Assembly: GCA_004298505.1 (NCBI GenBank)
Contig: SCRO01000023.1
Location: 73,033 to 137,032, forward strand
DNA from: Rhodanobacter sp.
GTDB taxonomy: Bacteria > Pseudomonadota > Gammaproteobacteria > Xanthomonadales > Rhodanobacteraceae
Direction: 5' to 3'
Length of the DNA: 64,000 nt
Part shown: piece after piece, positions 20,058 to 24,050 of the stretch
Position numbering within the stretch: position 1 is the stretch's first letter
How the letters are laid out: each line of letters starts with the position of its first letter
The notes under the pieces: generated by a model
Seen by the model: the letters and a program-made list of their open reading frames with translations, nothing else
The model's database searches: none
What the model was told of the DNA's origin: nothing
Position numbers and translations under genes: made by a program

Positions 20058-21032
20058 TCAGCGGCGTGGCAGGGCATCCAGCGGACGCTGCCTGCATTGC
20101 TCATACTTGATCCAGGTGGTTTCGGGCAGCCGTTCCGCCAAAAAATCGACCAGTGCTCGTACCCCTGGCAACATGCCGCGCCGGCTCGGATAAACGAAGT
20201 GCATCGTGCCCTGGGGTTCGCTCCAGTCGGGCAGCACCACTTCCAGCTCGCCAGCCTGGATCGCCGCCGCACAGACGAAATCCGGTAGCAACGCAACGCC
20301 CAGACCGCGCCGCGCCGCTTCGAGCAGCACGGCGAAATCACCGGTGATCAGCCGTGCCTGCACCTCGACATGGACCTGCCTGCCCTGCGCATCGACCAGT
20401 TCCCACACCTGCGCGCCTTCGTGCTCGCGCATGGAAAGCGCGGGCAATCCGGCCAGTTCGTCCGGCGTGGTTGGACGCCCATGCGCCTGCAGCAGCGCCG
20501 GGCTGGCTATCAGGGTGGTGAAGGCGTGGCCGAAACTGCGAATCACCAGGTTGGCGTCGGTATCCAGTTTGCTGCGCACACGGATGGCCAGGTCGTAACC
20601 TTCGCCGATCACATCGACGCGGCGATCGCTGGACAGGACGCGCACCTGAATCTTCGGATACGCGGCCAGGAAGTCCGGCAACAGATAGGCGAGCACAGTT
20701 TGCGTGAGCGAGACCGGGCAGCTCAGCCGTACCACACCGCGCGGTTCGGCACGCAACTCGTCCACGGCATCCTGGGCCGCCTGGGCCTCCTCCAGCACGG
20801 CCCGGCAATGCGTATAGAACCGCTCGCCGACCTCGGTAACCACGAAGCGCCGCGTGGTCCGCTGCAGTAGGCGCACGCCCAGACGCTCCTCCAATTGGGC
20901 CACGCGTTTGCTCAAGCGCGATTTCGGTATGCCGAGCGCGCGACCCGCAGCCGAAAAGCCGCCATGTTCAACGACTGCCGCGAAGAAATACAGATCATTC
21001 AGATCCCGCAAGGGGCCGTTCATCAAGCTCAT
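20058..21032 (-). CDS. LysR-family transcriptional regulator
   Basis: About 324 residues. The N-terminal helix-turn-helix is FSAAGRALGIPKSRLSKRVAQLEE, followed by a LysR substrate domain (PRGVVRLSCPVSL, IASPALLQAHGRPTTPDEL). It belongs to the large AaeR/DsdC-like group of single regulators; the effector is unknown. I chose the ATG at 21032 because GGAAAC lies at the right distance; ATGs at 21044 and 21023 are alternatives. There is no divergent enzyme gene, since the next operon is separated by its own promoter. Confidence 0.82.
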   Translation of the reverse strand: MSLMNGPLRDLNDLYFFAAVVEHGGFSAAGRALGIPKSRLSKRVAQLEERLGVRLLQRTTRRFVVTEVGERFYTHCRAVLEEAQAAQDAVDELRAEPRGVVRLSCPVSLTQTVLAYLLPDFLAAYPKIQVRVLSSDRRVDVIGEGYDLAIRVRSKLDTDANLVIRSFGHAFTTLIASPALLQAHGRPTTPDELAGLPALSMREHEGAQVWELVDAQGRQVHVEVQARLITGDFAVLLEAARRGLGVALLPDFVCAAAIQAGELEVVLPDWSEPQGTMHFVYPSRRGMLPGVRALVDFLAERLPETTWIKYEQCRQRPLDALPRR

Positions 21033-21191
21033 TGCTGTTTCCATCACTGAACGATGAACGCGAATATACCTGTTCTGTCCACGAACTGTCCCGACAAAAG
21101 CAACCCGCACCCCTTGCTGGTTGGCGGCTAGCCGGTGCCCCGCTATCTCGCTATAGGCCATCAGTCATGTGGCGAAATGCGGCTTCGCGTA

Positions 21192-21219
21192 TTGACGACT
21201 CAAAGGTTAGTGTTATGGT
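21192..21219 (+). promoter_or_regulatory. Promoter of the ytr-like operon
   Basis: TTGACG (21192-21197) and TATGGT (21214-21219) are 16 bases apart and about 45 bases upstream of the first gene. The -10 lies inside the palindromic operator at 21208-21233. Confidence 0.6.
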
Positions 21220-21233
21220 TAACTACAACACTA
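21208..21233. promoter_or_regulatory. Operator palindrome, probable YtrA/GntR binding site
   Basis: A 26-bp inverted repeat in which 11 of 13 base pairs match. The outer arms TAGTGTT / AACACTA are perfect and the centre GGTTAACT contains GTTAAC. It covers the -10 box of the operon that encodes a GntR-family repressor, so it is well placed for autorepression. Confidence 0.75.
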
Positions 21234-21261
21234 CCATACGGACTCACTAGGGAGATGCGCC

Positions 21262-21600
21262 ATGAACGCATACAAACTGATCGCCGGCGCCGCAGCCGTC
21301 CTGTTCACCGTCGCCAGCCTCAGCGCTGTTACCTGCAACGTCAGGATCCCGCCCGCGGATGGCAGCCAACACGCCATCAAGGTCACCAACCTCGCGCCTG
21401 TCATCGTGCATCCCGGTGCGGCCGAGCGCCGCGCCGCGGCGCTGCTGAGCAACCACGGCAAGCTGGCCTCAGTCACGCTGTCCGCCGGTGCGGATACGTG
21501 CGGTAACGCCGTGCTCCAGCCCTTGGGTGCGCTCGGCTCGCAATTGGTCATGCCCTACTATTCGTTTGGCAAGAAGTTCGCCCGTATCACCAAGGAATAA
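21262..21600 (+). CDS. Small exported protein of unknown function
   Basis: 112 residues, first gene of the ytr-like operon, with ribosome site AGGGAGA. A clear signal peptide (KLIAGAAAVLFTVASLSA) is followed by a mature part of about 90 residues with two cysteines (TCNVRIP and ADTCGNAV) that could form a disulfide. I do not recognise the family. It stops 2 bases before the regulator gene. Being the promoter-proximal gene, it should be the most strongly expressed product when the regulator is relieved. Confidence 0.75.
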   Translation: MNAYKLIAGAAAVLFTVASLSAVTCNVRIPPADGSQHAIKVTNLAPVIVHPGAAERRAAALLSNHGKLASVTLSAGADTCGNAVLQPLGALGSQLVMPYYSFGKKFARITKE

Positions 21601-21602
21601 GC

Positions 21603-21977
21603 ATGACCATCACCTGGAACGACCGCGTCCCGATTTATCGCCAACTGCACCAGCGTGTGGTGGCGATGATCCTGGACGGCGCCTTGAACGAAGGCGACGC
21701 GCTGCCGTCGGTACGCCAGGTCGCCGCGGAGTACCAGATCAATCCGCTGACCGTATCGAAGGCGTATCAGGAACTGGTCGATGAACAACTGGTTGAAAAA
21801 AGGAGGGGTCTGGGCATGTTCGTCATCGAGGGTGCGCACGATGCGCTGCTGAAATCGGAACGCGAGCGTTTCCTGCGCGAGGAATGGCCGGTGCTGTATG
21901 CCCGCCTGCAACGCCTGGGGCTGGATTTGAAGACACTGATGCGCGAAGCGGCCACCCACCCGGAGAATCAGTCATGA
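21603..21977 (+). CDS. GntR-family regulator, YtrA/YhcF subfamily
   Basis: 124 residues: a winged helix-turn-helix (PIYRQLHQRVVAMILDGAL, then PSVRQVAAEYQINPLTVSKA) and a short dimerisation tail with no ligand domain, the mark of the YtrA subfamily. These repressors control linked ABC transporters, often in response to envelope-active peptides. The stop overlaps the start of the ABC ATPase gene (ATGA). The likely operator is the palindrome at 21208-21233. Confidence 0.9.
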   Translation: MTITWNDRVPIYRQLHQRVVAMILDGALNEGDALPSVRQVAAEYQINPLTVSKAYQELVDEQLVEKRRGLGMFVIEGAHDALLKSERERFLREEWPVLYARLQRLGLDLKTLMREAATHPENQS

Positions 21978-22831
21978 GCGCGGTGATTTCAGCCAGTGGC
22001 CTGAGCAAGCAATACAAGACGACGCTGGCGCTGGACCAGGTCAGCTTCCAGATCGAGCCGGGCCGCATCGTGGGTCTGATCGGCCCCAACGGCGCCGGCA
22101 AGACCACCGCGCTGAAGGCGATCCTCGGCCTCACCGATTTCAGCGGCGAGCTGAATGTGCTGGGCTTCGACCCGCGCAAGCAGCGCGACAAGCTGATGGG
22201 CGAGGTGTGCTTCATCGCCGATGTGGCCGTGCTGCCGCGCTGGATCCGGGTTTGCGAAGTAGTCGACTTCGTCGCCCACGTGCACCCGCGCTTCGATCGC
22301 GCCAAATGCGAGGCGTTCCTGGCACGCACCAAACTGCAACCGAATCAGCGCGTGCGGCAGATGTCCAAGGGCATGATCGTGCAACTGCATCTCGCCCTGG
22401 TGATGGCGATCGACGCCAAGTTGCTGATCCTGGACGAACCCACGCTGGGCCTGGACATCCTCTACCGCAAGCAGTTCTACCAGAACCTGCTGGAGGACTA
22501 CTTCGACGAGAACAAGACGATCATCGTCACCACCCACCAGGTCGAGGAAGTCGAGCACATCCTCTCTGACCTGATGTTCATCCGCGACGGCAGGATCGTG
22601 CTCGACGCGGACATGGATGCCGTCGGCGAGCGCTACATCGAGGTGATGGTGAACGCCGACCAGGCCGCCGCCGCGCGTGCACTGAAACCGCTGGACGAAC
22701 GCCAGGTCTTCGGCAAGAGCATTTTTCTGTTTGACGGCGTCGGACGTGCGCAACTGGAAGCCCTGGGCGAAATCCGCCGGCCTTCCATCAGCGACCTGTT
22801 CGTCGCCACCATGAAGGGAACCTACGCATGA
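21974..22831 (+). CDS. ABC transporter ATP-binding protein
   Basis: 285 residues. Walker A is GPNGAGKTTA, the signature region is MSKGMIVQLHLAL (a degenerate C-loop without the canonical LSGGQ), Walker B is LLILDEPTLGLD and the switch His is in VTTHQVEE. The start at 21974 overlaps the regulator stop and has GGAG upstream. It pairs with the permease that begins at its last codons (ATGA). YtrB-like exporters of this kind are linked to bacitracin- or cell-wall-antibiotic response; the actual substrate is unknown. Confidence 0.92.
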   Translation: MSAVISASGLSKQYKTTLALDQVSFQIEPGRIVGLIGPNGAGKTTALKAILGLTDFSGELNVLGFDPRKQRDKLMGEVCFIADVAVLPRWIRVCEVVDFVAHVHPRFDRAKCEAFLARTKLQPNQRVRQMSKGMIVQLHLALVMAIDAKLLILDEPTLGLDILYRKQFYQNLLEDYFDENKTIIVTTHQVEEVEHILSDLMFIRDGRIVLDADMDAVGERYIEVMVNADQAAAARALKPLDERQVFGKSIFLFDGVGRAQLEALGEIRRPSISDLFVATMKGTYA

Positions 22832-23808
22832 AAACCTCTACAGCGAACACCTTGTTCTGGCTGGTCAAGCGCGAGTTCTGGGAACACCGCGGCGGCTTCT
22901 TCTGGGCTCCGGTGGTCACCGGGGGCGTGTTCGTGCTGCTCAACATCATGGGCATCATCACCGGTGAGGTGTTTGGCGCACGGAACGGTTTCAATCTGTC
23001 GTTCGGCGGCAGCCAGAACAACATGCGCCTGCTGAGCCAGGCATTGGACAAGCAGTCGATGGACACCGTCGGCGCTGGCCTGGACATGGTGATGTATTCG
23101 TCCACCATGATCATGGGCATCATCCTCGGCTTCGTGGTCTTCTTCTACTGCCTCGGCGCACTCTACGACGACCGCCGGGATCGCAGCATCCTGTTCTGGA
23201 AATCGCTGCCGATCTCCGATACCGCTACGGTGCTTTCCAAGATTATCTCCGCCACCGTGGTCGCGCCGTTCATCACCGTGATCGCGGGCGCGCTGACCGG
23301 CATCCTGATGCTGCTGATGTTTGCCGCTGCGCTGTCCCTGCATGGGGTGAGCGTGTGGCACCTGCTGAGCCTGTCGCACCCGCTGCAGGTGATCGCCAAC
23401 ATGCTCGGTTCGATCCCGCTGTACCTGCTGTGGGCATTGCCGACTGTGGGCTGGCTGATGCTGTGCTCGGCCTGGGCCCGCAGCAAGCCGTTCCTGTGGG
23501 CGGTGGCGTTGCCGATCGCCGTGGGTATCGTGATCGGCTGGTTCGACCTGCTCGGCACCGTCAACGTGCCCAACAGCTGGTACTGGCGCGACGTCGTCGC
23601 GCGCATCCTGGGCAGCGTGTTCCCGGGTAGCTGGTTCGGCGAGGTCAGCGGGATCGGTGGCCACAACCCGGCCGAGCTCCTGTCCAGCCTGAGTGTGACT
23701 CGCGGCTACACCGCGTTGGCCTCAGCCAACCTCTGGCTCGGCGTGGCAGCCGCCATTGCCATGCTGGCCGGCGCGATCTGGTTTCGCCGCTGGCGCGACG
23801 ACAGCTGA
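22828..23808 (+). CDS. ABC transporter permease
   Basis: 326 residues with about six membrane segments: one near residue 30-50 (FFWAPVVTGGVFVLLNIMG), one near 90-115, a pair near 135-170, two near 200-240 and a last one at the C terminus. It is coupled to the ATPase gene by a 4-base overlap. It resembles ABC-2-type permeases of YtrA-controlled operons. Substrate unknown. Confidence 0.88.
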   Translation: MKTSTANTLFWLVKREFWEHRGGFFWAPVVTGGVFVLLNIMGIITGEVFGARNGFNLSFGGSQNNMRLLSQALDKQSMDTVGAGLDMVMYSSTMIMGIILGFVVFFYCLGALYDDRRDRSILFWKSLPISDTATVLSKIISATVVAPFITVIAGALTGILMLLMFAAALSLHGVSVWHLLSLSHPLQVIANMLGSIPLYLLWALPTVGWLMLCSAWARSKPFLWAVALPIAVGIVIGWFDLLGTVNVPNSWYWRDVVARILGSVFPGSWFGEVSGIGGHNPAELLSSLSVTRGYTALASANLWLGVAAAIAMLAGAIWFRRWRDDS

Positions 23809-23841: not shown

Positions 23842-23874
23842 ATGAAACCCATCACTTTCAGCACACTCGCGTGA
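23842..23874 (+). pseudogene. Possible 5' stump of a lost operon gene
   Basis: Just after the permease an AAAGAGAAC ribosome-site-like sequence precedes ATG and only ten codons (MKPITFSTLA), then TGA. The peptide looks like the first part of a signal peptide. I suspect a secreted or membrane protein of the operon whose body was deleted; the REP pair that follows may mark the break. This is inference. Confidence 0.35.
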
Positions 23875-23980
23875 CTCCGACTGCTGCCACGATGGATCCA
23901 GCCAACCACGGCCCGCTTGCACGATGTAGTGCGTGGCGTAGACGCAGCCGGCGAAGCCCCGATCCCGATGCAGGAGACCG

Positions 23981-24050
23981 CTTGCGGGCGATGCGCTCGA
24001 TCTACGGACATGCACCAGCGCAACGGCATCGCCCGCAAGTGAGCTCCTAC
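23981..24050. repeat. REP-like inverted pair
   Basis: CTTGCGGGCGATGC (23981-23994) and GCATCGCCCGCAAG (24026-24039) are perfect 14-base inverted copies. The right copy continues to GAGCTCCTAC, the REP tail also seen at 18012-18036. Such pairs arise from the RAYT/REP system, but no RAYT transposase gene is in the window. It sits between convergent genes and can fold as a terminator. Confidence 0.8.

Follow-up and report, generated by a model that had tools for sequence, protein, structure and literature searches.

A small exported-looking protein recurs as the first gene of YtrA-type ABC transporter operons behind a conserved operator in Rhodanobacter and related genomes

What a small, apparently exported protein contributes to an operon encoding a regulator and an ATP-binding cassette (ABC) transporter is the question raised by a locus of Rhodanobacter sp. 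(assembly GCA_004298505.1, contig SCRO01000023.1; genome of 3.78 Mb in 139 contigs). The locus lies in a stretch of 64,000 nucleotides (nt), positions 73,033 to 137,032 of the contig, called here the window. Four genes on one strand encode, in this order, the exported protein of 112 amino acids (aa), a GntR regulator, an ABC ATPase and a permease. An earlier, sequence-only reading had described them as a YtrA-type operon. The answer towards which we lean, at slightly better than an even chance, is an autoregulated ABC operon for envelope maintenance, the first gene of which would encode a membrane-tethered periplasmic accessory peptide. Judged from sequence comparisons, the first-gene protein looks like a real component of an envelope-stress operon.

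The gene order stated by the earlier reading agrees with the coordinates of the open reading frames (ORFs). The gene overlaps it had mentioned are present between gntR and the ATPase gene and between the ATPase and permease genes (4 nt each), but the first gene and gntR do not overlap and are separated by a gap of 2 nt. From the gene order and the 4-nt overlaps we infer that the regulator and the transporter are co-transcribed. The regulator stands beside an envelope-type ABC transporter, as is usual for YtrA-type operons, and the assignment to this type is upheld by the regulator family, the ABC genes and the operator over the -10 box.

The claim that a 26-bp palindrome covers the -10 box was confirmed. 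The palindrome consists of two 13-nt arms without a spacer, with complementary bases in 11 of 13 pairs, and the -10 hexamer TATGGT falls within it. The operator 24-mer, at up to three mismatches, has one site in the genome of the window, and its reversed control has none. When the regions preceding homologous operons were searched for this palindrome, all 92 genomes surveyed gave a positive result. In each of them the best GTG...CAC 24-mer within 700 nt upstream of gntR was taken and scored by its symmetric positions. The locus was chosen in 47 genomes by a relative of the small protein or by a match to the NCBIfam family NF052303 (L001, L003-L031, L066-L078, L154-L157) and in 45 by gntR alone (L109-L153), the latter being the only set unbiased for the small ORF. 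An operator with at least 14 of 24 symmetric positions precedes gntR in 92/92 genomes, and one with at least 16 in 89/92. Equally long downstream stretches, mostly coding, reached these values in 1/92 and 0/92 cases, and mononucleotide shuffles in 73/1840 and 25/1840, respectively. Operator positions 2-4 and 21-23 are invariant by requirement of the search; positions 5, 6, 8, 9, 11, 16, 17 and 20, which were not required, agree in 89-92 of the 92 genomes. TATAGT lies within the operator in 75/92 genomes, and a -35 element (at least 4/6 positions of TTGACA) is found 15-18 nt before the -10 hexamer in 73/92, the distance being 16 nt in 70 of these. Within the genus, 34 of 36 genomes carry one operator site, G018 carries two and G011 none.

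The half-sites of the window operator match the motif GGTG-N16-CACC reported for YtrA of Xanthomonas citri (Zhou et al. 2017, as cited in PMC6746942). Its operon likewise has a YtrA-type GntR regulator, and its operator agrees with that of the window in the outer half-sites and in their spacing. The window differs in its core, AGTG-N16-CACT, and in having one operator in its genome. An operator of about 24 bp whose half-sites lie far apart, a trait of the YtrA type, is thus present in the window as a putative binding sequence.

The regulator carries an N-terminal winged-helix GntR domain (PF00392, E 2.3e-15, 56.4 bits against a cut-off of 27). With 124 aa, about 50 of them past this domain, it has the 120-130 aa reported as typical of the YtrA subfamily (PMC6746942). 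Among solved chains 3tqn is the nearest (E 3.4e-38), and the YtrA-like structures 2du9 and 2ek5 of Corynebacterium glutamicum match at E 3.6e-10, further off than 3tqn. Of the 160 genomes sampled in the order, 153, its own included, contain a match to the regulator at E <=1e-25, one in each except for two in G208. Across the class, 8 of 143 genomes have a match at E <=1e-20, two of them from the same order. Among the six outside the order, operator and small ORF occur together in two (L159, L160), and neither lies upstream of the regulator gene in three.

The first gene, the regulator, the ATPase and the permease occur together across the order. Matches to the window protein (E <=1e-3) were found in 72/149 genomes, its own included, and all 44 other genomes of the genus that were searched are among them. 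An ORF between the operator and gntR was detected by script in 90/92 loci; L072 and L074, whose operators sit further upstream, have the ORF by protein match. The presence of an ORF alone is weak proof, because 853/1840 shuffles also yield some ORF that satisfies the criteria of length and position. What distinguishes real loci from shuffles is the hydrophobic N-terminus alone: a small ORF with this feature is present in 90/92 loci overall, in 45/45 loci chosen by gntR and in 12/1840 shuffles. In these gntR-chosen loci (L109-L153) the first gene varies strongly by family, with 67-164 aa by script and tails from MPYFSFA to LFLF, and the operator and the regulator are constant despite this divergence. 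The 112-aa protein has no Pfam match and one NCBIfam match (NF052303, 15.1 bits, E 0.02, against a cut-off of 140). Seven first-gene proteins from several families gave no NCBIfam match above the cut-off and two weak ones to the same family, XAC0231. The protein had been called a new small exported one; it does look exported and belongs to no named family, but it is not a local novelty, since it recurs across the order.

The conservation of the first-gene protein is confined to a few parts. In 47 aligned proteins the residues V49, M97, P98, Y99 and F102 are invariant, and the C-terminal motif, searched as P[YF][YFIV][SADR][FMV] near the C-terminus, is present in 75/92 loci. L075 (G023:C24:1-7500), a first gene of the same genus outside the 47-protein alignment, has a degenerated C-terminal motif and keeps the final residues ISKE. 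The ratio of nonsynonymous to synonymous substitution rates among 30 congeneric first genes is 0.53 for residues 1-25, 1.16 for 26-39, 0.43 for 40-62, 1.04 for 63-90 and 0.22 for 91-112. Purifying selection is therefore limited to the helix, the VxVxPS motif and the C-terminal tail. In the genus, the last codons AAG GAA and, within MPYYSFG, the codons CCC, TAC and GGC are each found in 30/30 genes. Constraint on the MPYYSFG codons themselves was rejected, as 18/210 seven-codon windows of the first two genes show even less synonymous change and the codons vary among 36 instances of the motif outside the congeneric set; its conservation is read as acting at the protein level.

The structure prediction proposed for the exported protein returned a helix and disorder and left its role undecided. 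The AlphaFold2 model, based on 47 sequences, is of low confidence (predicted local distance difference test score, pLDDT, 63.8; predicted template modelling score 0.23), with an N-terminal helix at 3-25, a short helix at 53-62 and otherwise no structure, so that no globular binding domain is predicted. A search of solved structures with the protein sequence gave nothing at E <=5. In a set of 48 first-gene proteins, in which rows L006 and L035 are the identical protein, the residues ahead of the hydrophobic stretch have a positive net charge in 44, and those following it a net charge of zero or below in 37; a lipobox-like pattern is seen in 2 and AxA near the end of the stretch in 20. A single-pass inner-membrane anchor with the N-terminus inside is the topology preferred on these sequence features, and the N-terminus may be cleaved.

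The permease model is confident (pLDDT 90.8). The ABC2_membrane_5 domain scores just under its cut-off in the window and above it in two relatives. Foldseek found no match at E <=0.001, the best being NosY (E 0.063), and a search of solved structures with the permease sequence gave nothing at E <=1. A second fold comparison placed NosY (Z 11.4, root-mean-square deviation 5.2, 233 aligned) and PmtCD (Z 11.2, 5.5, 232 aligned) at the head of a list made up almost wholly of ABC transporters, such Z values in helical proteins being possibly due to a common arrangement. The model thus fits an ABC-2 type fold, which does not indicate the cargo.

The neighbours of the operon were compared in relatives. 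A gene for a DUF2884-type lipoprotein, identified by Pfam on three of the downstream proteins, lies at most 1,500 nt 3' of the permease gene, and on its strand, in 20/20 sampled congeneric loci. At the expected distance past the permease gene, the window holds a stretch with 9/16 identical residues and an internal stop, a weak similarity (E 0.020 in a 500-base search, 3.6 over the whole window); the DUF2884 gene appears to have been lost from the window operon. One DUF2884 gene is located elsewhere in the genome, with no operator match there. In the loci of the f2 genomes, which are read as Xanthomonadaceae from the family match, a Toastrack protein is encoded 3' of the permease gene (three scanned, two above the cut-off); no Toastrack gene was found after the permease gene in the window. 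In the part of a survey consulted here, the grouping of a GntR regulator with an ABC ATPase, a permease, DUF2884 and Toastrack is presented as a phage-shock-protein (PSP)-like context of envelope stress (PMC11237479).

Eight of nine clear extra operators of relatives were examined; the G107 site and two weak G096 sites were left out. HlyD-type adaptor genes, all supported by Pfam, lie beside six of the eight (L165-L170; families f4, f5 and f11), with a resistance-nodulation-division (RND) pump gene confirmed by Pfam at two of these loci, and the G105 site has no clear target gene. A link between YtrA and RND efflux is hence a candidate. One congener has its second operator before a gene for a DUF2884-PDZ lipoprotein (L172, G018:C3:96300-102300). 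An envelope role of the operon is supported by its neighbours and the extra operator targets, which are envelope genes (DUF2884, HlyD-type, Toastrack).

The weak match to NF052303 raises the question of how the window protein relates to the XAC0231 family. At E <=0.01, the NF052303 search gave 16 matches in 15/100 genomes, two of them above the cut-off. Five matches are those of the f2 genomes, six are first genes of the operon (G046, G052, G024, G058, G037, G039), and those in G020, G015 (twice), G103 and G104 were taken as chance. Alignment of the first-gene and XAC0231-type profiles by hhalign gave a probability of 93 and E 3e-7 over 55 columns, which include the hydrophobic N-terminus, one side consisting of only four sequences. 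In all five XAC0231-type loci of the f2 genomes (L061-L065) the operator GGTGTA[CT]TACCTTACTACCACACC is located upstream, its core differing from that of the window, and in 4/4 inspected loci of the five the gene is followed by a TrmL-like one, as judged by eye. Both kinds of protein are small and exported, with an N-terminal helix, VxVxPS and this kind of operator upstream, but the XAC0231-type proteins carry VxVxPS repeats and lack the C-terminal tail; the window first gene carries VxVxPS and MPYYSFG together, and the first genes of the f2 operons have the tail. Filing the window protein in the XAC0231 family was rejected, given its score far short of the cut-off, the scores of its relatives, which also fall well short, and the unshared tail. 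A weak resemblance is what the sequences suggest, and membership in an unrelated conserved family, which would have spoken against the earlier reading, was not found. The literature searched contained no mention of XAC0231, nor of YtrA together with Xanthomonas and trmL. Zhou et al. in 2017 reportedly listed trmL and XAC0231 as one target of X. citri YtrA, with which the arrangement of these f2 loci agrees.

In the explanation we favour, a dimer of the YtrA-type regulator would bind the palindrome. Because the -10 box lies inside the operator, binding would cover it, exclude RNA polymerase and repress the whole operon, including gntR; with gntR in second place on the presumed transcript, the regulator would limit itself. 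An envelope signal would relieve the binding, and the ABC-2 type transporter and its small partner would then be made together. The partner would be exported by its N-terminal helix and kept as a single-pass inner-membrane anchor, from which its disordered chain would extend into the periplasm. Outside the helix selection acts on two stretches, which suggests that VxVxPS and MPYYSFG may be two contact points on a flexible tether, most likely for the transporter, for the DUF2884 lipoprotein of relatives or for an envelope substrate.

Several observations weigh against this explanation. In one of the six class matches outside the order (L161) gntR follows the operator immediately and no small ORF lies between them. 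The proteins of 15 loci (families f5, f7-f11) lack the C-terminal motif and end in other short tails, most of them hydrophobic; the motif is altered in L078 and in L075 of G023, which belongs to the same genus. Moreover, repression may not be the sole mode of the regulator, because HpaR1 of Xanthomonas campestris, compared here as a subfamily member only, has been reported as an activator of gumB that acts at another type of site, and also as a repressor of its own gene (PMC4730234).

Other roles of the first gene were weighed against the accessory peptide. Inhibitors of the lipid II cycle are reported to induce YtrA-type operons of Bacillus subtilis (PMC12772383), and the extra operators of relatives adjoin genes for RND-pump adaptors; both would suit a sensor or immunity factor, whose periplasmic tail binds an envelope compound or a lipid-linked target and shields it while the transporter removes the bound material. 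This is unlikely in our judgement, since a regulator that is nearly universal and single-copy in the order points to a housekeeping task and less to a defence directed at a single compound, and a globular binding domain is not predicted. The protein or a piece of it could instead be released, as a peptide signal or a cargo handled by the transporter, given its exported N-terminus, fast-changing linkers and constant C-terminal end, and its position beside an ABC-2 permease, which has the PmtCD exporter among its nearest folds. However, the operon genes inspected include no processing peptidase or modifying enzyme, selection also maintains the motif in the middle of the protein, and the C-terminal motif is shared broadly instead of being specific to strains, which makes a released product very improbable.

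The first gene may also be seen as an export-monitoring leader of the SecM kind, in which the MPYYSFG tail would stall the ribosome when the helix is not inserted and so set the translation of gntR. The export helix, the near-neutral linker, the conserved C-terminal motif, a stop codon 2 nt before gntR and a likely gntR Shine-Dalgarno sequence within the last two codons are what we take to be its likeness to such leaders. If true, expression of the transporter would be tied to the status of membrane export in a large part of the order. We give this role hardly any credence, because no conserved RNA hairpin was found in nine folded stretches (three from the window and six from relatives, z-scores -0.83 to 1.16), the mid-protein motif is under selection as well, and the XAC0231-type relatives precede a TrmL-like gene, not gntR, and have no C-terminal motif. 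For the window, folding predicted a 9-bp stem across the start of gntR. This stem was rejected as such a hairpin; it loses a pair in the alignment rows with GCC at residue 96, row L154 being left out of this comparison.

Published work already covers the operon type, the regulator and the operator motif, as well as the DUF2884/Toastrack context. The B. subtilis operon ytrGABCDEF, which is reported to combine a small membrane-protein gene in first position with a GntR/YtrA regulator and an ABC transporter (PMC12772383), resembles the window in layout, and YtrBCDEF differs in having two ATPases and more membrane subunits. The operons of the PSP survey share the GntR regulator, ABC ATPase, permease and DUF2884 with the window and its relatives, and Toastrack with the f2 loci, but the window operon appears to have lost DUF2884, and a small first gene and an operator are not mentioned in the parts of PMC11237479 examined. 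Among NCBIfam families the ATPase matches PmtA of the staphylococcal Pmt/PmtR system best (140 of 350 bits), and PmtR ranks second for the regulator (53 of 200 bits), all Pmt matches being below their cut-offs; the PmtCD fold is near that of the permease, and the window has one ATPase/permease pair. In the literature searched, which did not cover Zhou et al. 2017, neither the family of small first-gene proteins nor its association with operator and regulator throughout the order is described.

Table 1. Features of the operon and its surroundings, in window positions (nt).
Feature	Position	Strand	Description
Promoter	21192..21219	+	-35 TTGACG 21192-21197, 16-nt spacer, -10 TATGGT 21214-21219, TG before -10; sigma-70-like
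Operator palindrome	21208..21233	.	Core AGTG-N16-CACT at 21209-21232
First gene	21262..21600	+	ATG 21262; 112-aa protein with predicted N-terminal hydrophobic helix, disordered chain and conserved C-terminal tail
VxVxPS motif, first gene	21391..21426	+	Residues 44-55
MPYYSFG C-terminal motif, first gene	21550..21570	+	Residues 97-103
Last two first-gene codons, AAG GAA	21592..21597	+	Reads as gntR Shine-Dalgarno sequence, a probable role judged by position
GntR regulator, YtrA type	21603..21977	+	124 aa; Pfam GntR
ABC ATPase	21974..22831	+	285 aa; Pfam ABC_tran; ATG at 21974 (start 21884 in the mechanical ORF list)
ABC-2 type permease	22828..23808	+	326 aa; fold model and near-threshold ABC2_membrane_5
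Putative DUF2884 lipoprotein gene-start remnant	23842..23889	+	Similarity to the gene 3' of the permease gene in relatives

Two further features flank the operon. A LysR-type gene, recognised by its domain match, is divergent at 20058-21161 on the minus strand; its helix-turn-helix domain begins about 50 residues into the mechanical ORF, and the true start is maybe nearer 21046, outside the operator. An inverted repeat with 23-nt arms, 87% complementary and 31 nt apart, is located at 23972-24048, 3' of the lipoprotein remnant.

YtrA-type operons serve as markers of cell-wall stress, and their natural function is unsettled. A recurrent first-gene protein with few constrained parts offers a concrete handle on this function. 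For the XAC0231-type proteins, known so far by a family number only, a regulon-wide link is suggested. Should the tail of the first-gene protein prove to bind an envelope intermediate or the transporter itself, it would become possible to find what such transporters carry.

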